Assembly (NCBI GenBank): GCA_012845835.1
Contig: JABAKD010000018.1
Location: 4,981,279 to 5,045,278, forward strand
Direction: 5' to 3'
DNA from: Undaria pinnatifida
Taxonomy: Eukaryota; Sar; Phaeophyceae; Laminariales; Alariaceae
Length of the DNA: 64,000 bases
In this document: in pieces, positions 6,797 through 40,428 of the stretch
How the letters are laid out: every line of letters begins with the position of its first letter
Numbering within the stretch: the stretch's first letter is position 1
Notes under the pieces: model-generated
Told to the model about the DNA's origin: nothing
The model's input: the letters and a program-made list of their open reading frames with translations, nothing else
Databases searched by the model: none
Program-made: the position numbers and the translations under genes

Positions 6797-7283
<487 letters not shown>

Positions 7284-10381: not shown

Positions 10382-10491
10382 TCCATCCCGGCGTGTACCC
10401 AATGATGTTCGAATCCGGCAGGACTACGGACCTCAGTTCATCAGCCAATCAATGCTGTCGCGATCGTGCGTAACGACGTTGTCATGCTCAC
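10382..10491 (+). pseudogene. Relic of YHYH exon 3
   Basis: CATCCCGGCGTGTACCCAATG and GACTACGGACCTCAG match the minus-strand exon at 36603-36724, which encodes SIPAYPML and GTTDLSSTANAVGI. Here CAAT is inserted in the Ala-Asn-Ala codons (frameshift), and the donor CAG|GTACTT has become CAC|ATGATT. Confidence 0.8.
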
Positions 10492-10547
10492 ATGATTGAA
10501 GCAGCACAACAACCAGAACACAGACACTAGCATATTTTTTGTATGTG

Positions 10548-10972
10548 GTCAGGGATTTGTGCCTAGATGACCGGTGCTCAGGGGGCCGAATCGAGTATTT
10601 TTGCTAGGGGGCCGATTCATTACGCTGTTGTTGTTTTTGACTGTTTCTTGTACGATTTCGCAGCAACTTCGTCGTTCTGCGTGTTCCCAGAACGATTTCG
10701 CACCCACAGGTCGCTGTTGTTGACTGTTTCTGGTACGAATTCGTACTAAGGTTGGTGTCGATTTCCGGTACGATTTCGTACCAATGGTCGCTGTTTCCGA
10801 CTGTTTCTGGCACTGCACTGTTATTTCGTACCAAAGGTCGCACGATTTCGTACTAATGTCGCTGTTTTGTTTTGTTTCCGGTGCGATCAATGCACCGGTC
10901 CCCTGACAAAAATACTCGATCTGGCCACCTAATGCACCGGTCCCCTAGGCGCAAATCCCAGGTTCGGTTCCC
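10548..10972. mobile_element. Foldback element with ~65-bp inverted ends
   Basis: The left end (GGGATTTGTGCCTAGATGAC, then CCGAATCGAGTATTTTTGCT) is repeated inverted at the right end (10885-10972, with AAAAATACTCGATC and GGCGCAAATCCC). The interior is a degenerate minisatellite built on GGTACGATTTCGTACC, itself palindromic. It lies in the pseudogene's intron 3. The minus-strand gene has only 663 bp in that intron and no such element. Confidence 0.7.
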
Positions 10973-11611
10973 CAATGCACCGGTCCCCTAACGCATCACA
11001 GGGTAGGGCAATCCAAATGGGTCGTATGTCCATAGGGTTTGCTGTATTTTTTGTTTCTCCTTGTGTTGGGATGCTAGTATTAATAGGCAATAATAGACTA
11101 GACTATAATAGTCTATACCTGGTAAGGCACGCCAGAGGTGGAAACAATATACGATAAGATAGGCAAGCCAACATGCCAATAATAATGCCTGAACCGCAAC
11201 AACGTGCCTATGCATTCAAGGATTTTGCGTTGCAAAAGGCCTGAGGCGTGTCTGAACCCTTTTCAGCGCCCCAAGCGACATCCTGCACGATTTTGGAGAC
11301 TTTTCGTTTTGAGGGGTAGAACGCGCCTGAAAATGTGCTTGGGGGTTCCGGGCGAACGGCGTTGTTTTCGAGTGCCTGAGAGGGCTTTTGCGCATGTCTG
11401 CTCGTGTCTGGTGAAAGCTAGGCAAGATGAAGGCAAAAACTGCAGTTCAGGCGCACGTGATTGGGAAGTAGCGCTTCGGGTGTTATTTTCAGGTCAAAAG
11501 TGTAGTCTACACTGACAGCGTTTCTTGGGTGTGACGGAGACCATTTTCGAAACAATCACCGTGCCGGACGCCTGAGGTACCTTTAAGTACCTGGATTTAT
11601 TAACCTACTAG
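10973..11611. other. Intronic repeat sequence
   Basis: Part of the long third intron of the pseudogene. 11220-11560 shares motifs (GGGCTTTTGCGCATGTCTGC, GTTCAGGCGCACG) with 12040-12260, indicating two diverged copies of one repeat. TAGACTATA and TACCTGGTA short palindromic motifs occur at 11099-11125. Confidence 0.45.
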
Positions 11612-11937
11612 GAGCTAGCATTGAATACGTCGCCCCGGTGGCGTATCAGGTTATCCTCGACCCTGGTATAGGTCGGTTTCGTGAGTTCGAGCCCCGCCGA
11701 GTGCATACTCGTAAAAATTCGTTGGGACTTTTTCTTGTGCACAAATTGACTTGCGGAAAGCGCGAGAGCGTGAGTTAGCAACACTCGATGAAAAATCGAC
11801 GAGCAGTGGGAGTGCTGAACCCTACGCGCAAAAAAAATTGAAGGCAAGAACCGGGGGGGAGAAGGGACGACACCTGTGACCACGGCTTGTCCAGAAGCTG
11901 GAAAGTGAAAGTGTGCGAAAAAAAAAAAAAAAAAAAC
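11612..11937 (+). mobile_element. S3 SINE-like element with tRNA-like head and poly(A)
   Basis: GTGGCGTATCAGGTT and GAGTTCGAGCCCC resemble pol III A and B boxes about 55 bp apart. A body containing GAAAGCGCGAGAGCGTGAG and GTGGGAGTGCTGAACCCT follows, then a run of about 18 A near 11920. The same body recurs at 48500-48716 and, reversed, near 49765-50075. No full tRNA cloverleaf can be drawn. Confidence 0.6.
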
Positions 11938-12800
11938 GTCGGCCGTTCGCCCGAGATGGGTGGTTGTTTTTTCATGACGAGTCGTAGTTAGACATACTAG
12001 TTTCGGCAAGGCCTGTAGCATGCGACTACAGCAGATACACTCCGTGTTCTACACCCCCTGTCCCTGATGTTGGGAGTTCCGGACAACGGCGGCGTCGTCG
12101 ACTGCCTTACAAGGCTTTTGCGCGTGCCCGCCCGTGGCTGACGAAGTAATTCAAAAGCAGGCACGGGGAGAATAGTTCAGGCACGCCTGTTCCAGAAAAC
12201 GTGGCCCAGGCACTAGTCTAGGCAATGCTCTTGTAAATGCGCCTAGAGATATTTTGTGCCGACGGCAAGCTTCACGTGTCCTCCTCTTGGCCAACGCTCC
12301 AAGGGACTACTTGTAAATACCACAGGCGCAGAGCAGTACAGCCGACACAACTCAGACGCCAGACATTCCAGACGCACGCCTAACGTATGACTTAACTTCG
12401 ACAGCCCGCCATGACCTCGGGATTGCCCAGGCCCGCCACGTGCCCGACGGGTAGCAGAGATCCGACAGCTCCCGTCTTCTCAGTATTAGTAGATTTTGTA
12501 CGTATTTGACGGTACAGGCCTCCCACGTGCCCAGCGAATATCTTGCCCGGATAGATGCGAACACTCGCCATCTCCTCGTTAAAAGATTTCGCGTAAACCT
12601 AACATCTTCTCGCTCCAAGGTGAAAGATACAGCATGGTCCTGAAATTAACACTATGGATTCATTGTTTTCGATCAACCCCACGCCACGGCATTGCCTGTA
12701 TATAATATGCTGTCTCCCGTGGATATGGAAACTGCATAACAATGTCTCCATTGGTTTTCTACCATCGAAAATAAACTCTGTCGATGTTTGCCTCCCTCAG

Positions 12801-13004
12801 TGCTTGGGCTAAGGACCAGGTAGTATAGAGTACGAAGACACGGCCTTCTACCTCGAGGGGGACTCGTTCGATCTCTGCGGAGGACACTCTACAGGACAGG
12901 GCACCTTCCACTACCACAGCGCGGCGGGTTGTCTCCAGGGTTAGGCAGCGCTAGCGGCGGGGACCAGCGCCAGCGAGCAATCTGCGCTGCTCGGATGGGC
13001 TTAT
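12801..13004 (+). pseudogene. Relic of YHYH exon 4
   Basis: It is bounded by a good acceptor (TGCCTCCCTCAG, ending at 12800) and donor (GTGAGC at 13005), as in the minus-strand copy. The downstream frame reads YEDTAFYLEGDSFDLCGGH and then GTFHYHSAAGCLQG, the YHYH-domain signature with the first Tyr of YHYH changed to Phe. Two extra bases around GTAGTATAG shift the frame, and a CAG codon has become TAG after CLQG. Length is 204 against 202 in the intact exon. Confidence 0.85.
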
Positions 13005-13349
13005 GTGAGCGGTTCTTTCTATGGAATTGCAACCCCCTGTCGTTCTACGATAGCCCCCCCAATTTTTCTTAAATGAGATCGCCGGTTTGGAAACCAGCTC
13101 CCGGCCGTAACGCCTGAATTACGGTGCCCCTTGCCACCCCGACGCCATCGTTCGATCGCCCTTTGCAAACAATAAAGTACATGGAGATATTTGTTTCCTA
13201 GCATATTTGCTCGTGTCGAGTAAACATGAAACGTCTGTTAAAGAAATCGCCGGTTTTGGGGCGGGGGCTATCGTAGAATCAGTCCCCCCGGAAATAGGCT
13301 AGACCTGTCCAATAGTGTTTCTTCTTTGCAGTTTCCAGTGTGCGTTCTT

Positions 13350-13420
13350 TTACAGAAACAAGCGGCGGTTGTCGCGAGGGCAAGCACCAGCGAGAGCTCT
13401 GCGCTGCTAGGATGCACTTA
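13350..13420 (+). pseudogene. Duplicated tail of exon 4
   Basis: TTACAG followed by AAACAAGCGGCGGTTGTCGC and CTCTGCGCTGCTAGGATGC repeats the last third of exon 4 about 420 bp downstream. The minus-strand gene has the same extra tail at 35562-35630, so this duplication is older than the split of the two copies. The donor is lost here. Confidence 0.7.
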
Positions 13421-13821
13421 CATAAACGATTCTTGGCCCATTAGAGAAATATGTGATACCACAGAAGGATGGAGAAAGGGCAACTTTGACGTGAAAAGTA
13501 GGTCGAAATTAAGCCGGACGTATGAGCATGTAATTTAGAAAAAATATAACAAAAAGGGTTCCTTGTTTGCAGTTTCCTCGGACAAGGATCTTACTTCTTC
13601 AGTTGTTTAGGAGAGGGTCGATTGTTCCAAAGGCGGGCCACCTTGCGACGGCCTCCCTACCTAATGCCCCCCCGCACAGTCGAGTATCCCGTGCAAAATC
13701 TCAACGCTCGGTCCCATACTCTACCCATTAACGATTTCCTCACGCGTTTACGACCATGTAACATTTTCCCGCTTCCGTGCGTTCGTCACGACTTTTCAAC
13801 CATACCGTGAACCGTCTGCAG

Positions 13822-13872
13822 GAAAGATTTCCGATCTACGGACATCTAGCTCCGGACGGCGTAGAAACGAAG
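13822..13872 (+). pseudogene. Relic of YHYH exon 5
   Basis: Exactly 51 nt between CTGCAG and GTGAGA, encoding ERFPIYGHLAPDGVETK. The intact paralogue has DGFPIYGQRGPDGVEMK, the canonical end of YHYH domains. This exon is still open, and its Gly-to-Arg and Arg-Gly-to-Leu-Ala changes hit conserved positions. Confidence 0.85.
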
Positions 13873-13928
13873 GTGAGAAAATAACGCCCGATACTTCAAA
13901 GTAATCCAGGCACAGTCGTTCTATTTAG

Positions 13929-14014
13929 CTGAGATTGTCTATCTCTGTGGCCTTGGCGCAAACGCAGCGAGTGGACGGCAGCGTAATGTAGCTCCCTTCG
14001 AGAGCGTTTGCAAG
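13929..14014 (+). pseudogene. Relic of candidate exon 6
   Basis: CTGTGGCCTTGGCGCAAACGC encodes CGLGANA and matches 35007-35091 on the minus strand. In the shared part every difference falls in a third codon position, which supports a coding past. Exon limits are not certain. Confidence 0.5.
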
Positions 14015-14024
14015 ACGAGCGGGC

Positions 14025-14050
14025 GGGGGGGGGGGGGGGGGGGGGGGGGG
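14025..14050. repeat. Poly(G) tract
   Basis: 26 consecutive G residues directly after the exon 6 relic. Confidence 0.95.
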
Positions 14051-14562
14051 CGTTTTGATTTATAGCCTAGTACTAAAACCATAGATACTCTCATCTATAC
14101 AACGACGGGACGGAGCACGTAAGGGTTTGCACCGACCATGCAGACATCGCGTGCATCAAGCGCGAAGCGCCGTGAGGTGTTCGGCGAGTGGCATGGAGGG
14201 TGAGCTTTGCTGAAAACGGAGGGAGGGAGGGGTAAGGATAGATCACCGAGCCATTTACTGCACCCGTGTTTTTCCTGGACAAGATGCTTGGGACTTGTGT
14301 TCGACATAATATACCAGGTATAGAACACTGGTGCACCTTAATCGACAGCGCGTTCCGCTGCCCACCCTTTTGGGCCCTATACACGGCACCGCATAGCCCA
14401 CCGACTGCGATGTTCGAAATCCTAAGATTGTAGCATTCACGAGTATGACCATGCAACGTATGTATGGCGTAGACCGTTGCTTGGCAGTTCGGCACATCTC
14501 CTATCCCGGTGCAGCACAGGCTTCTTCGTGTCCCCGATGCTGCAATTGTCATACACTGTCAG

Positions 14563-14620
14563 CACGTCTTCCCTTTCAAGCCCCAAACGTGTTGGTTGGT
14601 TGACAGACGACTCCATGAAG
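14563..14620 (+). pseudogene. Relic of candidate exon 7
   Basis: After CACTGTCAG the frame reads HVFPFKPQTCW. The minus-strand counterpart reads DVFPFEATKGW, with silent third-position changes across V-F-P-F. The donor may be CATGAAG|GTAGAC. The exact limits, and whether this belongs to the spliced message, remain uncertain. Confidence 0.45.
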
Positions 14621-15223
14621 GTAGACATCGGCTCCTTCCGAGAACAACCGGTGCTAGTCCCCGTGGAGGCCCAACACGCCGTCCAGTACTACCCGTACCC
14701 GACGCTTCTTGGCTCTAGTAACATGATGATGTTCAGGAAGAATCGAAGTTAAAGCTACCCTCCATATTGATCGGATGACATACCCTGTATGTAATAGCAA
14801 TGATCTTATATCAATGCTTGTTGTTTCCTGCGTCGTGAGCTCCGCTCTCTTCGCCAGTGTGCTACATGTTGTATGCGCGCAGGCACGTGGAGAGCAAGGA
14901 GGTGGTGAGATATTTGTCAAATGCAATAAACTGATTCGCATTGATGTGTCGAACTCGCGTCCGCTTGGAGCTATATTTTTGACAAGGAAGGTGGGAAGTC
15001 CTTACCTGTATTCACCGCACGGTCCCAGCGCGCCAACGGTTCACGCTCATAGTATTTTGATCAAGGAACAAATCAGTCTGCATCGCCTGCGTTTCCTTTC
15101 TCCCATCAAGCCGTTCAGACGCATTACCTGGTAATCAGGGCTCAAGTCGATCTACATCGATCGCTTATTCTTTCTTTCTTCCCGTGTTTCGCACTCCCTG
15201 GCCGGCTGTGATATGCGCGGCAG

Positions 15224-15328
15224 ATGTGCGACTTGGACAGTGCAGACTCCACTGCCTGCTTGGATGTTTGCTCCGGGTACGAGGCACTCATTCCCGACAT
15301 CGGCGACTTCGCCTACCGCTACAATACG
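15224..15328 (+). pseudogene. Relic of exon 8 (conserved, unrecognised segment)
   Basis: 105 nt from GGCAG|ATGTGC to ATACG|GTGGGA, the same length as the minus-strand exon 34193-34297. It encodes CATWTVQTPLPAWMFAPG and then TRHSFPTSATSPTATI. Over the first 20 codons the two copies differ only by silent third-base changes. The exon itself is still open. I do not recognise the family. Confidence 0.75.
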
Positions 15329-15419
15329 GTGGGAAGCAATACCACTGTAAACATTCTTGTCATCCGACAGTGTGCAGCATGAGCTGCAATATCGATGACT
15401 CATAAAAAATTCTAGAAAG

Positions 15420-16730
15420 AAAGAAACCAAGTGCAGTCTGAAACGTATGTATGTCCTATGGGTAGAGAGTCGATAAATGTATATTGAATATGCTTCTATA
15501 GAAGTGTGGTTTCGTAACTGGTTATGCGTCCTCTGTAGCCGCTGGCCGCCGGGCAGAGGTAGGTCAAGGGAATCGCGCGTCTAGCTATTCTAACTCTCTG
15601 TACGGTTTAGTTTTTTTAGTCGCCGTTTCTGAGACGGCCATCATTTTTCATCGCGGTTGGCCACTGGAGCGTCTTAACCGGAGTTGTTTTACATGGTTTT
15701 GGTTTCCAGAGAGATTTTACTAGGGCTAATAGTTCCCGGCTCAAAAAGGCCACAGCCACGCGCACGCGTCGGTCACTTTAAACGTGCCATCCGACGCTGC
15801 CTAGAAAGTCTCGTGGTTCTCCTGGGTGAGCTCGGCGAGAAATCCTAGTCTGCATCTGCAAAGTTCCCCCTCCTTCGCTTTAATCCTGAAGTCTGTATTG
15901 TCAAGCACAGAGGTGTAGCTCATTTGATGAAATTCTAATTTCTCCCTTCTCAAGGCAACATTATGGGCTCTCTATTATATACAACGTACCATCTACGTAT
16001 ATGATATCGATTCAAGTCATCAGGCCGTGTTATAGACTGCAAGAGAACGAGTATAAACGCGAGAAAAAGTGCGCTGCAACAGGAGAACACTAGTCTACAT
16101 TCATAGAGTACTCTCCTCACGTGGGTCAGAGAAACGGCTGGCCCTAGCCACACCGAGCCTTCGCAGTTCAGCACTCGCCAATACGCCCAGTCGAGTGTGA
16201 TATAGTTTACTGTTTTACTCGACCAATATCCTCTTTGTTTGGCTTGGATTCGCAACAAACAGACAGCAGGAGCAGCAACAGCTGACAACAGCGGCAGCAA
16301 CAGCACAAGCAGACCCGCGTCGACTCATACCATACCACGACTCTTCCCAACAGACCCCACATATTTACATATATATTCGACGATATACACTGCACATTGC
16401 CGTACAACCCACTACCCATTGCTGTAAAGCAGAACTGTCTCAACAGTATGCTCGTGTAATATGCCGTACGCAGTGCATACGAAGCGCACGCAAGCGCGCA
16501 CTAAAACAGGATATAAGTAGGAAAACAATATAGTTCAGATCACAAGCGCGCGAGAGCACCTGAAAATCGCTGCCCGGAACCCGTCACTGGCCGTGAGAGG
16601 GGGAGGATACCCGTATAGTGTACAGGTATACCGAAGAACAAATAACGGCACGAAATGTAATGTAAATGTACATTATAGCATTTGTTGAGCCTCAGCCATC
16701 CATCGAGTACACAAGAACACCAACGACCGA
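15420..16730. other. Intron-like region of the pseudogene
   Basis: No recognisable counterpart of exons 9 or 10 of the minus-strand gene. No clear element termini. ORFs here are short and have no family resemblance. Confidence 0.4.
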
Positions 16731-16987
16731 GGCTACGGTAGGGGGGGTACCCCCATTTTCACTGGTGTGTTTGAGCCACTCGCACGAGTGGCTCTGTACC
16801 CCACAGATGAAGATGGTTTACGCACTTGTTTCGGCGCAGCTTAGATCACCTTTGCATTGCGAATTAATTTCGCCAATGTATAACGTGAAGAATAAGCAAA
16901 TTCACATAGGAACAAAGGGGTTACTCGCGCGAGTGACCCCTGGCCACTGAAATAAAAGGCCCAAAAGGGGACCCCCCTACCGTAGCC
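16731..16987. mobile_element. MITE-3 copy, intact inverted ends
   Basis: 257 bp. The left end GGCTACGGTAGGGGGGTACC and the right end GGACCCCCCTACCGTAGCC are inverse over 17 bases. Inside are two palindromes, GAGCCACTCG-CA-CGAGTGGCTC and AGGGGTTACTCGCGCGAGTGACCCCT (one mismatch). A second, older copy is at 21764-22035. There is no transposase, and no obvious target duplication is visible. Confidence 0.8.
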
Positions 16988-17855
16988 TGGGTCCAACGAT
17001 AGCAGCATAGACACCGCCGAAGGGAAAAAACAGAGCGGGGATTTAGATCGAGGCTGGGGCTATCCCAGTCGATTATATCTCTTAGGTTTACCTAGAGCGT
17101 CTATAAGCAAAAGCGTCGGACCGCCTGTCATAAACTAACTGCTCGGATATATACACCGAGATCTTTTTTTGTTACGACAAGCAGTTTTTGGGATGTTGTA
17201 GTACACGACTACGGAGAAGGCAATTTTTTGACAACATGATGTAATCATATGTGCCGGTATCTACGTTGGTGCGGTGTGTCGGACTCCGACATTTCAACAT
17301 CGCTCTTTCAAACCCAGCCATCCTCAACTTTGGTGTTTAGGAGATCCTATTCGTTGCGGACGTTTTTCGTCGCTGGCACCTTTTAATGAGTGTGTGATGC
17401 ACGGTATATGTACTACTACTACAATAACATGCCACATCCGTTCGTCGGTGACAGGGTCGTTTTTTATAATTGTTGTCGTATTTGGTCCCAAAGATAGATG
17501 TTTCTCGTTTCTAAACCTGTTCTTGTTGACGGGCCACTGCTTTGTTGCGGCCGTGCTTCTGCGGTGGTTATGCTTCTGATGGGAACTGTGACCACACTTT
17601 TGCTGTTGGGGTCGGATGCCAATTGTGTCTCTTCCGTAGCTTCGACTGGGGGAGGGGCGGTTTTTTGCTTCTGCTGTACAGCAAACGCCCTCGTTAACTC
17701 AAACCATTTACCAGGTATAAGGCTGTCACTACCTATCCGAGCTGCGCACATGTGTCCGACTCTCAAGTGACCAGATGCCAGCTATTCTGTGTAAGTGATC
17801 ACATACATGCAGCCATCCAACATGTAAATACTAACGCCTAGGGAAATGCAGGCCG
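16988..17855. other. Intron-like region of the pseudogene
   Basis: No exon recognised. Contains TACCAGGTA at 17709. The ORFs of about 100 codons here have no recognisable domain. Confidence 0.4.
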
Positions 17856-18003
17856 ATGACAAATACTCTGCTGTTGTCACTACTGCTACCGCCACTGCTG
17901 CCGCAATCTCTGCTGCTACCACTGCTTCTGCTGCCGCTACTGCTGGTTCTGCTTCTGATGCCGCTTCTTCTGCCGCTGCTGCTAATTTGCCGCTGCCACC
18001 GTC
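17856..18003. repeat. Degenerate CTG-type triplet tract
   Basis: A CTG/CTN-rich tract just before the discoidin exon relic. A CAG/CTG tract occupies the equivalent place (30840-30900) before the exon in the minus-strand gene, so it predates the duplication. Confidence 0.7.
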
Positions 18004-18030
18004 GCTTATGTATTAAAAATACTCTTTCAG

Positions 18031-18327
18031 AGTGGTTTCGAGACCAGTAGCGAGTACGACGACGACAGCGGGTACCTCGAGGTCGGGACCAAGACTACTG
18101 TTGACGTCGCAGCCACCGCGTATCACGAGGACCCCGGCGAGGATTTCAGTGACACGGTGTGCTTTGCAGACGGTTGCCTGCCCGCATTGGCTCACGGCGG
18201 CGACAGCAGCGACTTAGAATCAGGCGGCGGCGCACACGAGATCACGTTCACCTCCGGCGAGGCCGTGGACCTTATGGGTGCGCAAGTGGCCTTTTTTAAG
18301 GGAGAGGAGCCCTTGTGCTGGCGTCAG
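18031..18327 (+). pseudogene. Relic of exon 11 (discoidin-like, first half)
   Basis: It starts after TACTCTTTCAG. It encodes YLEVGTKTTVDVAATAY, DGCLPALAHGGDSSDLES and VAFFKGEE, matching 30518-30820 on the minus strand. Seven codons, including the Arg-Trp-Ser-Cys of the paralogue, are deleted in frame. The donor AAG|GTAACC of the paralogue is CAG|GAAACT here, so GT is lost. Confidence 0.82.
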
Positions 18328-18876
18328 GAAACTGGTAGGGGGTTAACTAACATCCATGTTGACGCGGTATATCTGTGAAATTGTGGCCCGTTGTGCCGTA
18401 GTATGATAAAGACGCATGGCGAGCGCTACTCCGGCCCTAGCACCCCAGATGCGCACTTACTTGCCGAGCTCCAGCACACGAGCTATCAGCTAATAAAGGC
18501 TTCTGATGAAGACGCCGTTTTCTACCTTCCAAACACAGGACGCTGGCAGTGCCGGACGGCCTATCTTTCCCCGATTATATCGCAGCACATTGATCATCTG
18601 TGTCAAAAATATGTCTTGCTCTAACGGGCGGTATGACCGCTGTTTCTGTGTAAAGAAAGCAGCTCGCACGGGCGTACATGCTACGTCCTTAGCCCTGCCC
18701 ATTGGGTTATTGGGTTCGGGTTAGAGTATAGGTTAGGGACATCTATACTATTGTATACCGCAGTGACCCTCGACCATTAGGTCAAATACGTGCAAAGGTG
18801 CCCTGCCGCTAGCACGGTGCACAGCCACCTAGACTAACACTATTGTCTGTTGCGGATGAACCATCGATTTATACAC

Positions 18877-19023
18877 ATCCGGATCAACGGCGACATAATC
18901 GGAACGTTCGAATCCTATATCGGATCCACGTTCAAATACTTCGATATCGAGAAGAGCGCGGTGGAATCTCTGACAATGGATTCTGTCGGTATCGCTACGG
19001 CCGAATGGATCAGCGTTGTTGAG
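18877..19023 (+). pseudogene. Relic of exon 12 (discoidin-like, second half)
   Basis: 147 open nt encoding IRINGDIIGTFESYIGSTF and ending TAEWISVVE before GTGGGT. The paralogue (29824-29970) starts after CACACAG, whereas here that position reads ATACAC, so the AG acceptor is lost. The similarity continues about 30 nt past the GTGGGT with codon-like substitutions, so the frame may run on to the stop at 19069-19071. Confidence 0.82.
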
Positions 19024-19239
19024 GTGGGTAACACCTCAAAAGCAGAGGGGCGCAGAGTCCTCAGGCTGTAGGCCTCGCACTTGCTCTCACGAAAATTCGG
19101 GTGCGAGCACTCCCAAGCCTATCTGCACTTTGTCCGTTCCTCTTTGTACTTGGTTCGAGCAGGCGGAGCACACGTAACTGCCCTCTCCTCGAGCCCGACG
19201 GTGCCACCCTATGGGCCAAAATATGGAAAGTGCCTTTCT

Positions 19240-19370
19240 CGCTGTCATCATTTTCATCCGGTAGCAGGTTTTTTGTTTCTCCAAAAATCAGTTTTCGGGA
19301 GAGGCCTTAAGCTCTCAAATTGAGGAATCTCAGAAAGCAAAGAGGTGCACCTCGATGGTAGCACGCGTCC
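19240..19370. mobile_element. MITE-1 partial copy
   Basis: Contains the conserved right half (CATCCGGTAGCAGG, GGGAGAGGCCTTAAGCTC) and the right terminus CCTCGATGGTAGCACGCG. The left terminus is missing. Confidence 0.65.
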
Positions 19371-20955: not shown

Positions 20956-20959
20956 TATC

Positions 20960-21225: not shown

Positions 21226-21289
21226 CACTTTTGACAGGGCTGTGAGTCAGCATTTCGCAAATAATACCTAGTCGCCAGTCAGACCACCT

Positions 21290-21500
21290 CCTCTCCTCCT
21301 CCTCCTCCTCCTCCTCCTCCTCCTCCTCCTCCTCCTCCTTTCCTCCTCCTCCTCCTCCTCCTCCTCCTCCTCCTCCTCCTCCTCCTCCTCCTCCTCCTCC
21401 TCCTCCTCCTCCTCCTCCTCCTCCTCCTCCTCCTCGTCCTCGTCCTTCTCCTCCTCCTACCTCCTCGTCCTCTTCATTCTCCTCCTCCTCCTCCCCCGCC
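21290..21500. repeat. (CTC)n microsatellite
   Basis: About 210 bp of CTC/CCT with a few interruptions, followed by GTAGTTGTAGTT repeats to about 21552. The Gly/Glu minus-strand frame is an artefact. Confidence 0.93.
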
Positions 21501-22035: not shown

Positions 22036-22087
22036 TTGGTCCATACTACTACGTGTATTGTTAGTGTATTAACTAGTGCATTAGTGA

Positions 22088-24842: not shown

Positions 24843-24847
24843 TCTGC

Positions 24848-29823: not shown

Positions 29824-29970
29824 CTCAAGGAGGGCGATCCATTCGCCCGTCGTGATACCAACAGCCTCCATGGTCACAGACTCCACCCCAGTCTCCTCGA
29901 TGTCGAACGAGTTGAACGTGGATCCGATATAGGATTCGAACGTGCCAATTTCGTCGCCGTTGATTCCGAT
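29824..29970 (-). CDS. Exon 12: discoidin-like domain, second half
   Basis: Acceptor GGCACACAG, donor GAG|GTGGGT, 49 codons in phase 0. Reads IGINGDEIGTFESYIGSTF and ends TGEWIALLE. Joined to exon 11 this continues WLK directly into the next beta-strand, as expected for an F5/8C-like sandwich. Coding similarity with the paralogue continues slightly past the donor, so a terminal read-through form is possible. Confidence 0.72.
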
Positions 29971-32900
29971 CTGTGTGCCAAAAGAGTTCATGCGCGATCA
30001 ACGAGAGCGGCAGTGCAAATGGTTGTGCATGGCGCCAGCGGCTGAACACCTCACCGATTACCCGATGCTATGGTTGAGGGTCAACCGTGTACAATGCGAA
30101 TGCCACTACGTCCAGCCCTAATCCCAACCCCCCAACCCATTGAACCGAATGTTAGGGCTACAGTAGAAACCACCGCTGTAGTAGCACAGATGGCCTATGT
30201 CTTGTGCCACACATGCAGCAAAATTGGTTTACCCGGCATGGAACAAGAAGTATATTCCATGGTTGAGTGTTGTGCCACGCTTCCGTAGGTAACCGTTCTG
30301 ACATCTGACAAGGCCAGCGTCTTGCACGCAGGGAGACGAAAAATCGAAAATCCTTAGAACCCTTGGCTGGTGGCTGGCATGCTGGGTGTCGGCAAGCACA
30401 CAACAGGGGTGCCACGTCTGGAGTGGCGTTCATCGTCCCGTCTGCCACGATGTACAGACACAAATCCGGTCGGGGAAATCGTCAATGCTCGTGTTAGTTA
30501 CAACCTCTGCCGGTTACCTTGAGCCAGCGCGTGCGCTCCTCCCCTTTATAGAAAGCCACTTGCACATTCTTAAGGTCAACGGGATCGCCGAAGGTAAACG
30601 TGACCACGCACACGCCGCCGTCGGGGATGCTGCACGACCATCTCGACTCCAAGGTGCTGCTGTCGCTGTCGTGAGCCAAAGCGGGCAAGCAGCCGTCCGT
30701 GCCGCAGCCGGTGTTGCCAAAATCCACGCCGGGGTTGCCGTCGTAGGAAGTGGCGGCAGCATCGACGGTCGTCTTAGTCCCGACTTCGACGTACTCGCTG
30801 TCGTCGTCGTTTGAATCGTCCTGTACGTTAAGACACGGCAAGAGCAGCAGCAGCAGCAGCAGCAGCAACAGCGGCAGTGGCAGCAGTAGCAACAACAGCG
30901 CTCAGTATCCGTGTTATATTTCGCGTGGATGTCGACTGTTTTGTGTGTGTACTGTGTTGCGTGCTGTACGTTGTTGTTTACAGTACCGCTGTGATCTGAT
31001 CACGAAAACATTAGACTACAAATCGAGATGGGGTAGCAGCAGCAGCAGCGGCAGACGTAGCAGAATCCGAGCAGTCTCCTTCATATACTCGCTGTGGTCA
31101 AATGTTGACTCTTCATTGTATGCTGTATTATACGCCGAAAGTGTTTGACGTTGAAACACGGTATCACAGCGGCGACAGCAGCAGCAGCAGCAGCAGAAGC
31201 GGCGGTGGTAGCAGCAACAGCAGAAGCAGGTCAACCTCCGTCGTTTGTTCGCTTCGGTCAAGTGCTTACTCATTTTTGGGCTCTGCACTGCTGTACACCC
31301 AAGATATTTGACAGCGAAAAACGGCAGCTACAGCAACACCGGGGGCAACAGCGCAACAGCACCGGTAGCAACAGCGGCAGCAGCAGCAGTGGCAGCAACA
31401 CCAATAGTAACAGCAGGTCAGTCTCCGTTGCTTGGGCTTAAGGCGAAAATGACTCGTTTGTGTTACTGTACTTTACACCCTAAAGACATTGCGTTGAAAC
31501 ACGGAAGCAGCACCAGGACCAGGACCAGCACCAGGACCAGCACCAGGACCAGTACTAGAACCAGCACCAGCAACGGCAACCGCAGCGGCAGTCGCCACGG
31601 CAACAGTTGCAGCAAGACCCCATGCCCGTTGGTTTCTCGCTATAGTTGAACGCTAACGCCGAGCCTTCGTGTGTGCTGCACTGTACACCCAACTACTTGA
31701 CGTTCCAACTCCGCAGCATGACAGGAGCAGCATACGAATAGCGGGAGCATGGCAATGGGAAAATATTGCACTACAGGAGTGGGGCCAGGAACGTTGGTGA
31801 AAGCAGTTGTTGACGCCGGTGTGGATGGTGCGCGAGGATGGAGTCAGGTGTGGAGGGTGACGTCGGAGCGAGGCTAGAAGGGGTGATGGGAGCAGCGGTT
31901 CGCGCTTGTAGAGATCGTGCGGGTGTGGGGTCTGGTAGAGGAGACGGTGTAGCTACGAGATCAAGAGTAAGAGGGCAGGTGGGAGCGTTGGTTTCTTTTG
32001 GTGCGGTCGGCACTGGAGCAGGCTCGACCTTGGCGGGGTTTGTGGGAGCGAGGCTAGGATCTGTTACTGAAGCAGTGGTTGACGCCGGTGTGGATGGTGC
32101 GGGAGCGGACACAGGAATAGTAGACGAGGTACTCACGAGAGCGAGGGTACGAGGTTGGTGGAGGCAGTTGTTGGTGAGGGGCTAGGGTCGGGAATTGGAT
32201 ACGATGTGGGTACGGGAGCGAGGGTAAATGGTTTACGGGAGGAGGGGTTACCTGCTGTGTAGAAGACGTAGAAGATTTAGGAGTCGTCGTCACCGAGCCG
32301 GCACCTGGGGGGTGGAGAAAGAAAACCAGTTAGGTTGATAGCATCCACCAACGACGAGAACATATGACAGCGTTGATGTAAGGGCCGAGCGTTTACGTGC
32401 TCGATGAAACGTCATCTCAAGGGGCCAATCAACGCCATCAGAGTGCACATACCTGCTTCAATCATACTTGTGACGTACGGCTTCTGCTGCCGGTCTTACT
32501 GTTCGGGGCGTGTATATCGATGGCGGAATTATTCTCAATACCGAACACCCGTCGCCGCACGCCAAGCCTCCAACCGGTATTTTCTCGCCGCCGATTTAAC
32601 TTCCACTTCCTACGTTTGCCCCAGAAACTTGTGCATTGCGTGAAACCGCTCAAAACTATAGCAATTAATTGGAAACAGGGTAACGCTCAACCTTTCCGCC
32701 CGCGAAGCTCCAGCAACCACCCCTCCTTCCCTCGTGAACGTTGAGAATCGTCAATCCAACTTTCAAAGCAGTTCGCGTCACACCCACCCTCGCCGGGTAT
32801 TGGGTCTGACAATTGGCCGGATGGAGGCCAGGTACCCACCACAGCCAACCACTAGGACGATTTTCGCTGCAGGCGAACTCACCCATGAAAAGAGAGCAAT

Positions 32901-35900
32901 CGACAGAGGTCATCGTGTCGATGAAATCGGTGTCATCTCCTTCGATCAGGTCCGTGTCGTACTGTTCGTCCAAGGACGTCGTCCGGCTCGGGACGTAGTC
33001 GTCGGTGTACCCCCTTTCCGGGGAGGTTCCGCAGGCTTCTACTTTTCGGCTGCACCTGCACATCACACAGACAGGATGTCGTTTTCAGCGCGAAAGGTGC
33101 AGCAGTGTAAGTGCCGGGTCGTCGTTAAAGAACAAAATAACACCGCCTCCAACAATAGAAACTGTGTGGCCAACGCGAAACGTGCAGCAGTGGACGCGGG
33201 GGGCACCGTTGATGCAACGTAGATGGACCGTGTCTCTAAAACTGAAACTCTGTGGTCAAGCGAAACGTGTAACAGGGGGTGGCGTGCACGGCCGAAGCTT
33301 GCGTCGCCCTTGCCGCCCACTCGTGCAGAGCGAGTGGAACGGGGTCAGGAAATATATCTCGCTGACAATGGGGTGTTGAAGCAACGTTAGACAAGACCTA
33401 TTGCAGACGAGCGGCAAACATTCGACGAGCCTCAAATTCTACCAGGTACATATTTTCCCCGATCTCATAGCCCTCGTCATTTGGTGTCAAAGTCAGAACC
33501 AGAATACTTCGCGAGGCCTATGATGAATCCGAAGCTGAATGGATCAAGACGCGCTCTGGTTCACCATTTGGTGTTGTTCTACCCGAAATTTTCGACAAGC
33601 AAGTAAACATATACCATAATTTGATACTTCGAAGGATATAATACTCACGATACACCATCTGGGCAGCATCCTCGGAAGCAGTTGGTCGTGAACGGGAAGA
33701 AAGACTCATCGAATCCGCACGACTGCAGAAGGTTCAGGTTTTGGAAAAGGCGTTTTAGGAATCCGAGACAGAGAGCGCAAGCGTGATCAGTGCAACCAAA
33801 ACCCTAGAGAAACTAGCGATTTTGCGCGTGTCCAAAGAGCACAAGTGCCCAACACTAATGTACTTGTATAGCGTCCGGAGAGGTCTTGCTTCCACGCGGG
33901 ATGTGTCTAACGTCAAAGGGCACAGTATGCTCTCGCGACATTTTATAAAGCTTACGGACTATCTACGTGGAGGGGCCGTACCGTTGAGCGTTTGTTATCC
34001 CACGTAGCATCTTGCGAGGTCACCTTGCGAAACGAGTACAACATCTCGATTTCTCATCCACAGAACCTCTAATCCCGGAGTCGATGCGTCTCGTGTACCT
34101 CGTGAAATATTAGGGATACGCACAAGATGTACCTCGGTTCCCCATCATACATCCCCACGAAATATCTCAAACCCGCAGGCTTTTGTTCGTACCGTGTAGT
34201 AGCGGTAGGCGAAATCGTCGACTTCGGGAAGGAGCGCCTCGTACCCGGAGCAAACATCCAGGCAGGCAGTGGGGTTTGCACCGTCCAAGTTGCACATCTG
34301 ACGCGGATGCCATCGCACAGAACATAAACAGTGGGGAAATCAAAGCTCACGATTCAAAAAATATTTTCCGATGCAGGACCATCGTCATTCTTCCTGTTAT
34401 CCGACAATCCCATGCAGAGTGGGCGTTGACGTCGGCGACCACGTAAACATTCCCATATTTTTGGACCCCGACGTGCCAGGTTTGTACTGTTTTTGTCTGT
34501 TTGTGCAACATCAACGGCGACACCAGTTTGTTTTGGAAGAACCATCGGATACGGGTGCAGCGCGTTATGGTTGGGGTGTCCACCATGGAGCCGCCTTTTG
34601 ACCAATCCACCCTTTTGTGGCTTCAAAGGGAAACACGTCGAGAGCACATGACCCGTACATCGCTGGTCACAAGAAGCAGCCCCGTGCCGTTACCTCGAAG
34701 TAACGAGCCACGCAACGCGTGCGCGGCATGGTGCTCTGCTGCACATTAGTTCTACGCTGAACATTATCACCCTCGGCGCCTTGTTAAGACTCTTTTTACG
34801 GGTCCTAAAATACGGTGGCGCGCGCTGTTGAGAAATATCTACCCCATGACCACACTCCGGATCGAACGATTACACAATACCACACACAAATTCCGAGCAC
34901 ATATTGTCCTAGCAAAACGGAGGTGCAACTTTAAAAAGGTCCGTCAAACACTCCTGCCCCTTCCGGTGTTTCTCAACATCCCCCGCCCTTCTTCCTCAAA
35001 CACTCCTGAAGGAAAATCCACCGTGCTTCGGACGACAGCGTTCGCGCCAAGACCGCAATTATCCGTGCGCCAGCTCCCGCTAGACAGAACGATTTCCCGA
35101 AAATTCCGTTTTGCATATCTAAAGCGTTTTCTGACCTTCATTTCCACGCCATCCGGGCCCCGCTGTCCGTAGATCGGAAACCCATCCTGTAGAAATTTCG
35201 GGGTATCGTTGAAAATAGGAGAGGGGAGCGCACGGAAGCAAGAGATGATAAAAGTTTGCCAAATGCGTGGGGAAGCCATGGTGGGGTAGAAGACGAGAGC
35301 CAGCGGGCGGAGAGGCATACCCTCGGACTGCAAAAACGGTGCCGGTGATGGCCAAATCAGTAAGACGCCCCGACGATGCCCTGCCTTTCAAATGCCCGGC
35401 TCTCTCATAGGCAGCCATGCACATAAAAAAAAGGAACAAAATCGAGAGAAACCGTAAGCTAAAAAATCCGCGGAACGAGCTCAGCTTCATTAGGAAACCC
35501 GCTTCCGGCAAATTGTTTAACCCGTTGCTGGTACAACACATTCATCGCAAGGAGCGCTCACAGAAGCCCATCCGAGCATCGTAGAGTGCTCACTTGCGCA
35601 GATCTCCCACCGCTACACCACCGCTTGCTCCTGCACAAACCCCAAGAGTAACAGTAAACAAGGAAAACTCGACTGAATTCGTACCAGTACATCTTAATGA
35701 CATTCATAAAAAAAATGCGTATCGTCTATATACTCACAAAAGCCCATCCAAGCAGCGCAGAGTGCTCGTCAGCGCTAGTCCCCGCCGCTACCGCCGCCTG
35801 CTCCTGTAGACAACCCGCCGTGTTGTGATAGTGGTATGTGCCCTCCGCTGTAGCGTGCCCTCCGCAGAGGTCGAACGTGTCCGACTCGAGGTAGAAGGCC

Positions 35901-38900
35901 GTGTCCTCATAGGTCAATACCTGGTCCCGAGCCCAAGAGCTGAGCGCCGCAAACAACAAGAGAGTTTTCTTTTCGATGGTGTAAAACAGAGCACGCGCTA
36001 GGCCTGCTACGCCAGGGTTGTGCAAAAGACAGTAATGAGGAGATGCCAAGATGCCGGAGTATACTCGCTGCTGCGTGCATCGAGGCCTGTCGAACGCTTG
36101 TAGAATTCACAAGGCTTCCCTTCGGGCGCTGGATAAGGTAAACCTATAAAGACTGATTCTATGGTAGCCCCCCTCAAGATCAGCGATTTTCTTTGACGAA
36201 CACTTCATGGCTGCTCGACACGAGGAAGGATGCAATTAACAACAAGGGTCTCGATATATTTTGTTGTGTGCAAAGGCCTATCGAACGATAACGTCGAGGT
36301 TTCAAGGGACACCGTATTTCAGGAGATTCGGTCGGGAGTTGGTTTCAAAACCGGCCATTTCTTTGAAGAAAAGTGTAGGGGGCTACCGTAGTACGACTCA
36401 GAATACAATAAAATACACGAGTGCCAAACGGGCCCTAGCAGTAGGTATTCATACCCACAAAACAACACATTATTACAATGAAAAGTAGAGCCGTACCTAT
36501 CAGCATAATAGCCATGATCGGTGCTCTGGTGAGGAACTCTTGCCGTGGAAACAACAAGCTTAGACTATGCCTTTTGTCTTGGTATTGCTGCTTAAAAAGT
36601 ACCTGAACATGACGACACCGTTACGCATGATCCCGACAGCATTAGCTGTCGAGCTGAGGTCCGTAGTCCCGCCGGATGCTATCAGCATTGGGTAGGCCGG
36701 GATTGACGTGTTCATCGCGTTGTGCTGCACGTGGTTGCGTTTTAGCATCGCGTGGGGAAGCGGGGGGGAGTTATGACGAAGATGTTTACCGGTACCATCA
36801 TGGTACATACTTCGAAGTACGAGATAAGAAGGTGACACCGAACTGTTGACTTACAGGTATGCTTGACATCGTTGCGGGAAGGCGTTGTGACCGGGTAGCT
36901 ATATACCTATCGTATGACAGCATCGCAGTTTTTGCTTCGTTTGAGCCTGGCTCTCTCAGGGTGTCAATGCCACTAATATGACAGGTGCGCTCCGTGCTTG
37001 CACGCTGTAAGATATGACACGGCGATGTCTGCTCCGCGGGACAACCGTTCAAAGATCGATTGTTGTCACCCATGAACTCGAGACGAACGCCTGGATTACA
37101 TGGTGAAGTAAATACTCGAAGCACAACACAAATTTTCCAGATAATTGGGTTTACAGCCCATGCCACTGCCGTAATTGTCTGCCCGCATTTGCGACCAATG
37201 CATGGTAGGAGGGACGCCGGATACTACCTACCCTATGAATACTATCATCGGCCCATGACAGAATGGTGTCGCTGTCATACTGTTGTAGTCGTGGGCAGTC
37301 CTTTGGATACCACTAAAGCCACAAGTGCCTCCCAGGTTTACGGCCCGGATGCGTCCTACGATAAGGTTGGGGAAGGGTAGACACTAATTTGTGCTGAAGA
37401 TGTTGAGGTGAAGAGGTTTGACGCGCGTCCTCCGATGGGGGTGGACGCTCATATTTTCTGTCTGAGGATGTTGACTTGAAAACCTTTGTCCCTCACCCTA
37501 CAACCAACAGGGAGAAAAAAAAAAACAGACACACACACAAACACACAAACACACAAACACACAAACACACAAACACACACAAGCTAAGCTCTTACTTCCA
37601 TGGGCATACAAAAATATCTCGCATGCTAGACCAAGCCACAAATTTATGTTGAATTCATGGTGTTACCTCTACAATGCAGAAGGCGTGCACTATTTTCGCG
37701 TCGTCGAAGCAGAGCAGACGATACTCCAACGTTTGAAGGTATCACACATCGGATTCAGAAGAAAATGCGGAGTAGCTCCTGCGTTCAGGAGCTCTGTTGA
37801 GCGAGACCAATTCGGACTTATATTTGCAACCCCTAACGTGGTGCGGTTGATGCATGTGTGTCCGCGTCTCACCTGTGCTGGGTTGGGATTGAGGTCCCAG
37901 TTGACGTGGTTGGGGCAGCCCGTGTTAGACGCCGCCCACCGCATCATGGTAGATCCAGACCCGCTATGAGACGAGCAAAAAATAGCACGGTACGTACGGT
38001 GGACGCTCAGTGAGATCGAGAGTATCGGTGTCCGGATGACGTGAGACTAGATGTTCTTGGTAGTTTGCAGGTTAGTCTCATCCGCACGTGCTGTAAATGG
38101 GGGTTGGTTGCTTTTCCGGAGAATACCGAATCCTCGCCGTCGAAGCCATGGCAACCAGCATGGTTTCAATCCCAGATCATCGTATATGTAAGGGTAGTTT
38201 CACTGCTGTTGTGCGTACGTCGTATCTGGTATTATATGTTCAAGCGTGGTCGTTTTCTTACGACTTAGAGATTGGGGGTTGACACTATAGTCTATATCAC
38301 GATTAGCCAACGGCAGAACATCCAAGGATAATACCATAATGATATCCACAAAATAAACTGGGAAAACAAAGAAACCCACCTGGTACGTCCACGTGTCGCT
38401 CCATTCAAGAAATAGAAAGGGTGGGAAAGTGAAGTAAGTGAGGAATGAATGGGCGAATGGATGAGGAACCCACTCCCGGTTGTGAGCTCCACTCATACTC
38501 ACCAATGTTAGTACTGACTTGCAGAGGAGTGATTGCGCACCGCTGAGTTGTGACCGCCTATATATATCATACAATAGAGTCGCAATTGCTCACAATGGAG
38601 AAGATGTTTCTTACTCGTACGAAGGGGTTGAAGTGGTGAACAATGGATGAACATGGTTTCGTACACCGGAGTCATGATGTGTTGCCTACGACGACGCGTG
38701 CTACGACAAAGGTACGAGGCACTTTTCGTCTTAATGAAGTAGCCTTTGAACGACCGGGCTCCTTAATCCAAAAATCGTCGGAAACAGGCCATTTTTTTTT
38801 GCCTGGTGGTACTCAGTTGTATTCACCTCGAGGCAAATGAGAGTTCCCCTCCGGTAGCAGCTTTATTTGCTCTAAAATCGTGTTTGGGAGAGGTCTTAAG

Positions 38901-40428
38901 CTCCCGAACTGAGGGGCAGTACTAGAAACAAAGTTGTCCGCTTCAATCGTAGCACGCGACAGGCGCTCGTGATTGCTCATAGCGGTGGTGTTGCGGTTGT
39001 GTACAACGGAGTTGTGACCGCGTGTTACACCGCCGCAGGGCGTTGCGGGGCTGTGATTGCTTGCAACGAAGCCGTGATTAGTTGCACCGGAATGATGCTC
39101 GCTTGCCACGGAGTCGTGATCGCTGGAACCAGAGTTGTGGTTTATTTGAACGGAGTCAGTCGTGGTCGCTTACGACGGAGGTGTGACTGCCCGCGTAGGG
39201 TTCGTGACCGCATACAACGTAGTCGTGGTTGCCTTCAACAGGGTCAATAGGAGGCAAACCATAGTGGCGTGACATTTCGGATCAGAATGGTGCTTGTTTA
39301 ACGCGGAGTCGTGCTTGCTCACAACGCCGTCGTAAGTGCGTACAGCGGAGCTGCTGTGGTGGCATAGATAGAGCAGAGTTGTAATTGCCTTTATAATATC
39401 ACGGAGCTAAGCTATTGCCGAAGACGAGTTTGTGATTGCTTACAACCGAAAAGCAATTGCTCACACAACGGAGTTGTGATTGGCTTACGGCCGGGTTGTG
39501 ATATCTTACGACGGAGCCATCGGGATCGCTTACGGAAGAGTTCGAGATGATGCGCGCTACGATAGAGGTATCCATTTTTTGTCCGAAAACGGTTTCTGGA
39601 TGACGGGGCTCCTTAACCCAAGACCGTCGGATTTTCGTACACTTTTTGCATGATTTTCGTGGTGCACCTACGCCTTGGGATTTTTTCATCCGGTACGAAG
39701 CAGGTTTAGCTTTTCTCCACATCAGGTTTTGGGTAATGAAGGCCACGTCTTAAGCTCCCCAATCGAGGAACCTCCCCGAAACAAAAACGCGGCCCACCTC
39801 TACCGCAGCACGGGACGGATGACTTGGTGTACAGCAGACTTCAACATTGAGAAAACTTTTTAATAAAAACCACAATCTTTATTTTTGATCCAAGGTGGTC
39901 ATAACGACTCGCGCCGTTCATATCATCCCGGTACAGCAGTACTATATGTCCGAGGTGGTGGTGGATGCCACTCCTTTTTCCTAGACTCCCGCGCGTGAGA
40001 AGCTCTATATACCTCCCCCAACAACTGAAAGGGTGCAACCCGGTGAAAACTCCCATGGCCTAGGCGTAGCAGAGCGAGCGGAAACGCCCTCTTAACAGTG
40101 TCGCAAAACACAAACAACAGCGTTCCAACGATATTCGGTAATCCCTCGGCTGAGAAGCCCCCCTCCACAGTCAAATATGTTTTGCCCACAAGGGTGCTAC
40201 CTCTGTTGTGGCGCAAGTTGTCGGTGAGCCAGGTGTAGCAAAAGAATTTTACCTTAGCACCTCGTCGTAGTGTGCGCTCGATCCGTCCTCCTCGCAGTAC
40301 GCAATCGACGCGTCATCGTCCGAGGCAGCAGTCCCAACGCCGCGGCGTTGCCCTACAACGCCCCGAGGGGTCGCGGAGAGCGTGCCTAAAGCGAGCAGAG
40401 TCGAGAGCTTCCCCACCGTCGACCTCAT
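29824..40428 (-). CDS. Secreted YHYH-domain protein with discoidin-like tail, multi-exon gene
   Basis: Gene model read from splice sites. Exons 1-5 (40253-40428, 37873-37963, 36603-36724, 35738-35939, 35136-35186) join in phase into 214 codons without a stop: signal peptide, GCPNHVNWDLNPNPAQ, SIPAYPMLIASGG, CGGHATAEGTYHYH, then GWAF joined to DGFPIYGQRGPDGVEMK. That order is the YHYH domain. Exons 8-12 (34193-34297, 32883-33055, 32252-32304, 30518-30820, 29824-29970) also agree in phase and give a conserved segment, an acidic Cys-containing exon, a Ser/Thr linker and an F5/8 type C-like domain. The link through exons 6-7 is unresolved, so two genes remain possible. The role is unknown; a wall or extracellular sugar-binding role is inference from the discoidin-like fold. 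Intron 1 holds two MITE-1 copies. Confidence 0.72.
30518..30820 (-). CDS. Exon 11: discoidin-like domain, first half
   Basis: Acceptor TTAACGTACAG, donor AAG|GTAACC, 101 codons in phase 0. It has an acidic start (DDSNDDDSEY), then YVEVGTKTTVDAAATSY, GCLPALAHDSDSSTLESRW and VQVAFYKGEERTRWLK. The SSTLESRWSC stretch resembles the variable loop and Arg-Trp of F5/8C-like domains. Four Cys could form disulfides. The paralogue lacks RWSC. Confidence 0.75.
30838..31640. repeat. CAG-rich and 12-bp tandem tracts (intron)
   Basis: CAG runs at 30840-30900, 31036-31050, 31170-31230 and 31320-31400, and a CAGGACCAGCAC-type 12-mer tandem at 31508-31575. Plus-strand Ser/Arg/Thr frames through them are artefacts. 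Confidence 0.75.
31771..32251 (-). other. Possible further Pro/Thr linker sequence
   Basis: Minus-strand frames are rich in Pro, Thr, Ser and Ala (for example TIPVSAPAPSTPASTTASV), with repeated TAGCCTCGCTCCCAC-type units. It may be further linker exon sequence or a decayed repeat; the frame breaks more than once and splice sites are unclear. Confidence 0.35.
32252..32304 (-). CDS. Candidate exon 10: Ser/Thr linker
   Basis: A very good acceptor (TTTTCTTTCTCCACCCCCCAG) precedes 53 nt encoding AGSVTTTPKSSTSSTQQ, followed by GTAACC. It accepts one leftover base from exon 9 and leaves phase 0, which fits exon 11. A typical O-glycosylated spacer by composition. Confidence 0.55.
32883..33055 (-). 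CDS. Candidate exon 9: acidic Cys-containing segment
   Basis: Acceptor GTGATGTGCAG, donor ATGG|GTGAGT, 173 nt. Starting with one base to complete an Arg codon from exon 8, it reads CSRKVEACGTSPERGYTDDY and later DEQYDTDLIEGDDTDFIDT. Phases match exon 8 upstream and exon 10 downstream. No counterpart was found in the plus-strand pseudogene. Family not recognised. Confidence 0.55.
34193..34297 (-). CDS. Exon 8: conserved unrecognised segment
   Basis: 105 nt from CGTCAG|ATGTGC to CACG|GTACGA, encoding CATWTVQTPLPAWMFAPG and TRRSFPKSTISPTATT. Strict silent divergence from the plus copy over the first 20 codons shows purifying selection on this frame and strand. The opposite-strand open frames at both loci are shadows. 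Confidence 0.72.
34584..34640 (-). CDS. Candidate exon 7
   Basis: The frame DVFPFEATKGW is shared with 14563-14620 and differs silently across VFPF. The placed donor (CCATG|GTGGAC) would create a TGA when joined to exon 8, so either the limits are wrong or a different splice is used. Confidence 0.4.
35007..35091 (-). CDS. Candidate exon 6
   Basis: The frame TDNCGLGANAV is shared with the plus copy with silent changes. The frame is open from exon 5 without splicing, so this could be either a retained stretch or an exon after a possible acceptor TTCTGTCTAG. The Cys-Gly-Leu pattern recalls the region following the FPIYG motif in eukaryotic YHYH proteins, which is from memory and unverified. Confidence 0.45.
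35136..35186 (-). CDS. Exon 5: end of YHYH domain
   Basis: 51 nt after TTTCTACAG, donor AAG|GTCAGA, encoding DGFPIYGQRGPDGVEMK. Phase 0 at both ends. Joined to exon 4 it gives LLGWAF-DGFPIYG, the conserved core of this family. Confidence 0.85.
35562..35630 (-). pseudogene. Duplicated tail of exon 4 in intron 4
   Basis: After TTTGTGCAG it reads GAGCAAGCGGTGGTGTAG and ends TGGGCTTCT|GTGAGC. It has acceptor and donor like exon 4 but an in-frame TAG, so its use would truncate the protein. The plus copy has the same extra tail. Confidence 0.7.
35738..35939 (-). CDS. Exon 4: core of YHYH domain
   Basis: 202 nt between GCGCTCAG and GTGAGT. It encodes SSWARDQVLTYEDTAFYLES, then FDLCGGHATAEGTYHYHNTA, then GCLQEQAAVAAG and LLGWAF. 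It holds the name-giving Tyr-His-Tyr-His and the Cys-Gly-Gly-His before it, likely metal-site residues by analogy only. Phase 1 in, phase 0 out. Confidence 0.88.
36603..36724 (-). CDS. Exon 3 of the YHYH gene
   Basis: 122 nt after ACCACGTGCAG, donor CAG|GTACTT. Reads HNAMNTSIPAYPMLIASGG and then TANAVGIMRNGVVMF, the upstream strands of the YHYH domain. Leaves two bases that complete Ser with exon 4. The acceptor has a weak pyrimidine tract. Confidence 0.8.
37519..37582. repeat. (ACACACAA)n microsatellite in intron 2
   Basis: Tandem ACACACAA units, preceded by an A run and ACACACAC. Confidence 0.92.
37745..37851 (-). mobile_element. MITE-2 fragment in intron 2
   Basis: On the plus strand it ends TTTGCAACCCCTAACGTGG, a MITE-2 terminus, and contains AGCTCCTGCGTTCAGGAGCT, a palindrome. 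It starts about 21 bp after the exon 2 donor. The pseudogene has a MITE-2 fragment in the matching intron and orientation. Confidence 0.55.
37873..37963 (-). CDS. Exon 2 of the YHYH gene
   Basis: 91 nt after TTTGCTCGTCTCATAG, donor CAG|GTGAGA. One base completes Ser from exon 1, then GSGSTMMRWAASNTGCPNHV and NWDLNPNPAQ. The GCPNH motif is typical of the start of YHYH domains. Confidence 0.82.
38696..38958. mobile_element. MITE-1 copy in intron 1
   Basis: Left end GCGTGCTACGACAAAGGTAC, right end CTTCAATCGTAGCACGCG; interior GGGAGAGGTCTTAAGCTCCC as in other members. Confidence 0.75.
38960..39545. repeat. Degenerate ~27-bp minisatellite in intron 1
   Basis: About 20 diverged units on the theme GTGATTGCTTACAACGGAGT. 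The period is a multiple of three, so a plus-strand frame repeats a nine-residue pattern for 90 codons, which is not evidence of a gene. It lies exactly between two MITE-1 copies. Confidence 0.7.
39553..39812. mobile_element. MITE-1 copy in intron 1
   Basis: Left end GCGCTACGATAGAGGTATCC, right end CACCTCTACCGCAGCACG; interior CGGGGCTCCTTAACCCAAGA. Confidence 0.75.
40253..40428 (-). CDS. Exon 1 of the YHYH gene: signal peptide
   Basis: The ATG at 40428 opens MRSTVGKLSTLLALGTLSAT, a short basic start and a hydrophobic core ending in a plausible Ala-x-Ala-like cleavage region. It then reads ASDDDASIAYCEEDGSSAHY and ends CTAAG|GTAAAA. Two leftover bases join exon 2 in phase. The protein is therefore expected to be secreted. 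A MITE-1 copy lies about 360 bp upstream. Confidence 0.72.

Follow-up and report, generated by a model that had tools for sequence, protein, structure and literature searches.

YHYH domains (Pfam family PF14240) were predicted to be metal-dependent hydrolases, with three conserved histidines and an aspartate, in a paper on jumbo phages whose passage on the domain does not specify which aspartate is meant (PMC7824862), and a passage of one diatom paper treats PF14240 as a diatom-prevalent family (PMC11992049). The CBM32 module of AlyQ, an alginate lyase of Persicobacter (PDB 7d29, 5xnr), is described as binding cleaved and not intact alginate, and in the relevant passage its authors suggest that residue R248 may bind the uronate carboxyl (PMC5651945). 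Sequences resembling both are found together on the minus strand of a 64,000-nucleotide stretch of Undaria pinnatifida DNA (contig JABAKD010000018.1, positions 4,981,279 to 5,045,278), referred to here as the window, in a gene that lies tail to tail with a broken paralogue on the plus strand. We consider it likely that a gene with a YHYH domain and a CBM32-like module was duplicated at the DNA level, that the plus copy decayed after a period of constraint, and that the minus copy is the working gene.

Comparison of 8-26 kb with 26-44 kb by blastn gave strand-opposed, mostly collinear matches of 69-87% identity, arranged tail to tail and far above chance (E 4e-63, 7e-47, 4e-37, 5e-36 and others), with homology extending from 36732/10356 to 29758/19089. 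An earlier note on this DNA had described segments paired across the two strands and lying tail to tail, and with the best of these E-values and the shuffled controls exceeded, that description holds. Its count of eight shared exons does not. Six coding exons (3, 4, 5, 6, 10 and 11) of the 11 in the minus model are common to both arms, with local alignment scores of 58-252, where 100 shuffles of each gave maxima of 30-44. The other two segments counted may be two further collinear matches that are not exons, one in an intron (14569-14617/34632-34584) and one in a partial, decayed exon 4 copy (13351-13414/35808-35745). The identical lengths noted for three exons were recovered in both arms (51 nt for exon 5, 105 nt for exon 6 and 147 nt for exon 11), and the aligned exon bases differ at about 13-23%. 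No plus counterpart was found for exons 1 and 2, searched in 1-10363, or for exons 7, 8 and 9, searched in 15329-18030, all scores falling within the range of 200 shuffles each. Searches with the minus protein and with each minus exon revealed no third copy within the window.

Introns 4, 5 and 10 align between the arms as well, scoring 113, 120 and 130 where 60 shuffles of each reached at most 34, 43 and 34, the intron 4 alignment taking in a decayed duplicate of exon 4. Because these introns are homologous, the copy arose at the DNA level. Matches were also obtained for the end of intron 3 (53, shuffle maximum 40) and for the first 66 nt past exon 11 (52, shuffle maximum 39), and none for the 2 kb before exon 3 (34, shuffle maximum 43). 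The segmental inverted duplication previously proposed is supported as a DNA-level event and is not shown to extend beyond the gene. The decayed partial duplicate of exon 4, found by searching the window, lies at 35564..35642 on the minus strand and 13351..13414 on the plus strand, and its presence in both arms indicates that their ancestor probably had one too. Segment order is mostly shared, as had been stated, with one departure: a non-coding element of about 249 nt, detected by blastn, lies after exon 4 in the plus arm (13039..13284) and before exon 4 in the minus arm (36151..36397). Its copies share 77% identity, a divergence about that of the exons, and no further copy was found in the rest of the window. 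The displacement could be explained by a tandem duplication of the element together with exon 4 in the ancestor, followed by reciprocal losses, which we offer only as a suggestion.

The minus gene runs from 40428 to 29824 in 11 exons of consistent phase, its 10 introns all starting with GT and ending with AG, in agreement with the canonical splicing and phase reported before; as exon ends were picked by eye to fit phase, this consistency is partly by construction. The model has 1497 coding bases (499 codons) and is free of stops. Exon 1 (40253..40428), with the start codon and what by eye is a signal-peptide-like N terminus, was placed by phase and a GT donor only, and exon 2 (37873..37963) by phase and splice sites. 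Where exon 2 meets exon 3, the sequence matches an NPN...IP stretch of other YHYH proteins. Exons 3 (36603..36724) and 4 (35738..35939), the latter with the CGGH and YHYH motifs, carry the YHYH domain according to the gene model and Pfam; exon 5 (35136..35186) encodes DGFPIYG; and exons 6 (34193..34297) and 7 (33649..33722) match the C-terminal portion of YHYH proteins from bacteria. Exons 8 (32883..33055) and 9 (32252..32304) were placed by phase and splice sites only, and the CBM32-like exons 10 (30518..30820) and 11 (29824..29970) have a match to AlyQ in addition to the gene model. Past exon 11 a short further stretch, partly alike in the two arms, is readable up to a stop in each, and coding may continue beyond the modelled 3' end. 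A Pro/Thr/Ser-rich open frame at 31771-32181 on the minus strand, between exons 9 and 10, may contain an unmodelled linker exon. We infer that the gene is expressed as modelled and that its predicted protein would be secreted.

The spliced minus protein is a member of Pfam YHYH (E 1e-17; 1e-6 for the exon 4 frame alone) and has the CGGH, YHYH, DGFPIYG and LD.C.G stretches of that family. Against the gathering cut-off of 25 bits the spliced minus protein scores 65.1 bits; when the arms were scored side by side, the minus arm gave 66.2 bits and the plus read-through, with X, 44.7 bits, so both lie above it. At an E-value of 0.01, tblastn found relatives in 18 plasmid records and in 88 phage records, the latter all named Synechococcus phages or cyanophages; a GTDB scan gave 245 relatives; the best 80 were retained, and the titles of many of these point to marine sources. 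Unlike the bacterial and cyanophage relatives, the domain is here split over several exons of a eukaryote-type gene and is followed by a CBM32-like module. The exon 2-3 join reproduces the NPN...P stretch of three of the five other YHYH proteins aligned (L005, L011 and L009), and NPN is missing from the remaining two (L012 and L044) and from all 80 GTDB open reading frames kept. Among the nine longest of those 80, Pfam detected a PEBP domain in five (L048, L034, L067, L058 and L091) and a CBM32-like module in none, although Pfam misses the module of the present gene too, so the contrast is a weak one. PEBP-family genes adjoin the YHYH genes of L001 and L002, and in Persicobacter psychrovividus (L011) about 1.1 kb separates the YHYH gene from one whose beta-helix match is weak and falls below the cut-off (15-1037 and 2126-2884). 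No relative with a solved structure was found by sequence.

At sites that are invariant in seven plasmid-borne bacterial proteins and aligned to both arms, with the first 8 columns dropped, the minus protein retains 20 of 20 residues and the plus arm 15 of 20, a count biased in favour of the minus arm because the relatives were found using its sequence. The plus losses comprise two glycines, the first tyrosine of YHYH and the DG of DGFPIYG. FHYH is also present in a Persicobacter relative, so the change from YHYH to FHYH is not necessarily harmful by itself.

Exons 10-11 match the CBM32 of AlyQ with an E-value of 7.4e-5 over 88 aligned query residues (4e-4 with the whole protein and 8.2e-4 with a two-arm profile). 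The arginine of the minus KGEERT stretch aligns with AlyQ R248, as numbered by counting from the published D209 and T214, making it the putative equivalent of that residue; the plus arm has proline at this position and has lost the Arg-Trp of ESRW. Here, unlike in AlyQ, the module is attached to a YHYH domain and not to a lyase. CBM32 modules have a discoidin-type fold. The discoidin label of the earlier note is broadly correct, the sole solved match being a CBM32, but no Pfam or NCBIfam model matches; since no curated family model did so, we call the module CBM32-like and do not file it as a member of CBM32.

In the plus arm (10.36-19.09 kb) six of the 11 exons are retained, each delimited by comparison with its minus counterpart. 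Exon 3 (10364..10491) has indels of +2 and +4, and its entering frame meets a TGA at 10403; its acceptor reads GG for AG and its donor AT for GT. Exon 4 (12801..13004) has a net +2 indel, reads FHYH for YHYH, and contains two TAG stops, at 12826 (entering frame) and 12942 (YHYH frame). Exons 5 (13822..13872, with ERFPIYG for DGFPIYG) and 6 (15224..15328) are open and have kept both splice sites. Exon 10 (18031..18327), with a net loss of 21 nt, has a good acceptor from which its frame stays open as far as a stop; it has no donor GT, the letters there being by eye GA (18328). Exon 11 (18877..19023) has AC for AG at its acceptor. The earlier list for this arm comprised a single nonsense codon, two frameshifts and the loss of three splice sites. 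The damage is real and was undercounted: four splice sites are lost (the exon 3 acceptor and donor, the exon 10 donor and the exon 11 acceptor), exon 10 has a net loss of sequence as well, there are several stops, and the absence of five exons had been left out. Decay of the plus copy, with its broken frame, is supported, and the minus copy, with its open frame, appears intact. As a paralogue with a disabled reading frame and retained introns (4, 5 and 10), the plus arm is probably a duplicated (non-processed) pseudogene, and with its frame damage, stops, lost splice sites and exons it differs from such pseudogenes in nothing essential. Within intron 3 of this arm, an inverted repeat of about 70 nt (10552-10621 and 10889-10959) resembles a small hairpin element.

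Selection was estimated by the Nei-Gojobori method on 289 aligned codons, with gapped codons dropped and two plus-arm stops excluded from the rates. Synonymous divergence (dS) was 0.454 and non-synonymous divergence (dN) 0.164, giving an omega (dN/dS) of 0.36 with a bootstrap range of 0.25-0.52; differences at codon positions 1, 2 and 3 numbered 52, 42 and 73. A codon maximum-likelihood fit to 287 codons gave an omega of 0.35 and rejected 1.0, with twice the log-likelihood difference (2dlnL) at 30.9. With one arm evolving neutrally from the split onwards, the pairwise omega would not be expected below about 0.5, and the lower value observed means that the plus arm was probably once constrained. 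For the CBM32-like exons 10-11 the maximum-likelihood omega is 0.24 and 0.5 is rejected (2dlnL 7.2). The plus arm was therefore probably under constraint for a time before its decay, at least in its C-terminal half, to judge from these rates, and this inference is softened by the variation of dS among exons, from 0.20 to 0.74. The relaxed constraint proposed for the plus arm understates an outcome that is now a pseudogene, although the sequence points to a phase of constraint earlier in its history.

The history we favour would begin with a multi-exon gene, encoding a YHYH domain and a C-terminal CBM32-like module, that was duplicated with its introns into the tail-to-tail arrangement. Purifying selection would have persisted for a while on both copies, or at the least on the plus copy's CBM32-like half, after which the plus copy would have lost exons 7, 8 and 9, exons 1 and 2 (unless it never had them), splice sites and frame, leaving a pseudogene beside a working minus gene. 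Without exons 1 and 2, the plus arm could be a copy that was truncated or an old one, once full, that has lost pieces.

Several results weigh against this history. The missing exons 1 and 2 would also suit a copy that was dead on arrival. Over all codons an omega of 0.5 is only borderline rejected (2dlnL 3.7, P about 0.055), and for the YHYH exons 3-6 the maximum-likelihood omega is 0.47, with 0.5 not rejected (2dlnL 0.06), so the YHYH half of the plus arm may have been neutral from the outset. The asymmetry between the arms is weak outside the invariant sites: at all 44 differing sites of the YHYH region the minus arm is nearer the seven bacterial proteins at 14 and the plus arm at 10, and relative to the 80 GTDB relatives the minus arm is nearer at 15, the plus arm at 6 and the two equal at 13. 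In the minus model exons 1, 8 and 9 are linked by phase alone. The CBM32 match is modest and to AlyQ only, no other CBM32 being listed; PHROGs instead gives a weak match (0.022) to a DNA-binding family.

The arms might instead be two members of an older, larger family that came to lie tail to tail by chance and are not local sisters, the plus arm having decayed independently, which we regard as unlikely. An old divergence (dS about 0.45), the end of homology at the gene and the absence of exons 1-2 from the plus arm would all be in keeping with this. However, both arms contain the 249-nt element and a decayed partial exon 4 duplicate, and no third copy occurs in the window; neither point excludes other family members.

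It is more doubtful still that the plus arm functions today, either through a short or chimeric protein encoded by exons 5, 6 or 10 or through an RNA pairing with minus transcripts. The open exons 5 and 6 with their splice sites, the open exon 10, the low omega of exons 10-11 and the converging directions of transcription of the two arms could all be accommodated in this way, but the exon 10 frame has no start codon, key residues have been lost, and so have four splice sites.

Slightly less probable again is that two adjacent genes, one with the YHYH exons (1-9) and the other with the CBM32-like exons (10-11), were copied as a unit. Phase is the only link to exons 8 and 9, and exons 9 and 10 are about 1.4 kb apart. 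However, the phases fit one protein, and in neither arm does the open frame of exon 10 have an in-frame ATG upstream; exon 10 thus needs an upstream exon, which supports a single joined protein. An assembly artefact, with one arm a misplaced haplotype or misjoined piece, is very improbable: nothing beyond the oddly displaced 249-nt element was found in its support, and allelic divergence is usually far below the dS and exon differences that separate the arms.

Elsewhere in the window, a reverse-transcriptase fragment at 3121-3612 (+) scores above the Pfam RVT_1 cut-off and another at 57482-57814 (+) below it; repeats related to these fragments recur across the window. Long trinucleotide repeat tracts lie at 790-887, 2582-2746, 6793-6993 and 21284-21430.

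With respect to published work, no open-licence paper was found that pairs YHYH with brown alga, CBM32 or Ectocarpus, or CBM32 with 'brown algae genome'. A survey of brown-algal matrix genes gives PL41 as the sole lyase family reported there, and neither YHYH nor discoidin appears in its main text (PMC11468063). None of the terms looked for were present in a brown-algal expression paper (PMC12629598).

The gene pair itself is a textbook case of ordinary duplication and pseudogenisation. The pairing of a YHYH domain with a CBM32-like module is the more interesting part and deserves a modest second look. By analogy, the predicted minus protein could be a metal-dependent hydrolase, in line with what has been predicted in print for YHYH domains, with the CBM32-like module holding it on alginate or another uronic-acid polymer, as suggested by the AlyQ match and the one aligned arginine. 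More specifically, and only tentatively, the gene might encode a secreted enzyme of this type targeted to uronic-acid polymers of the organism's own wall, which in a brown alga would be alginate; a cell-wall enzyme of this kind was not found in the literature searched. In the literature found, YHYH activity is only predicted, and the apparent join to an alginate-binding-like module makes a role in the cell wall testable.

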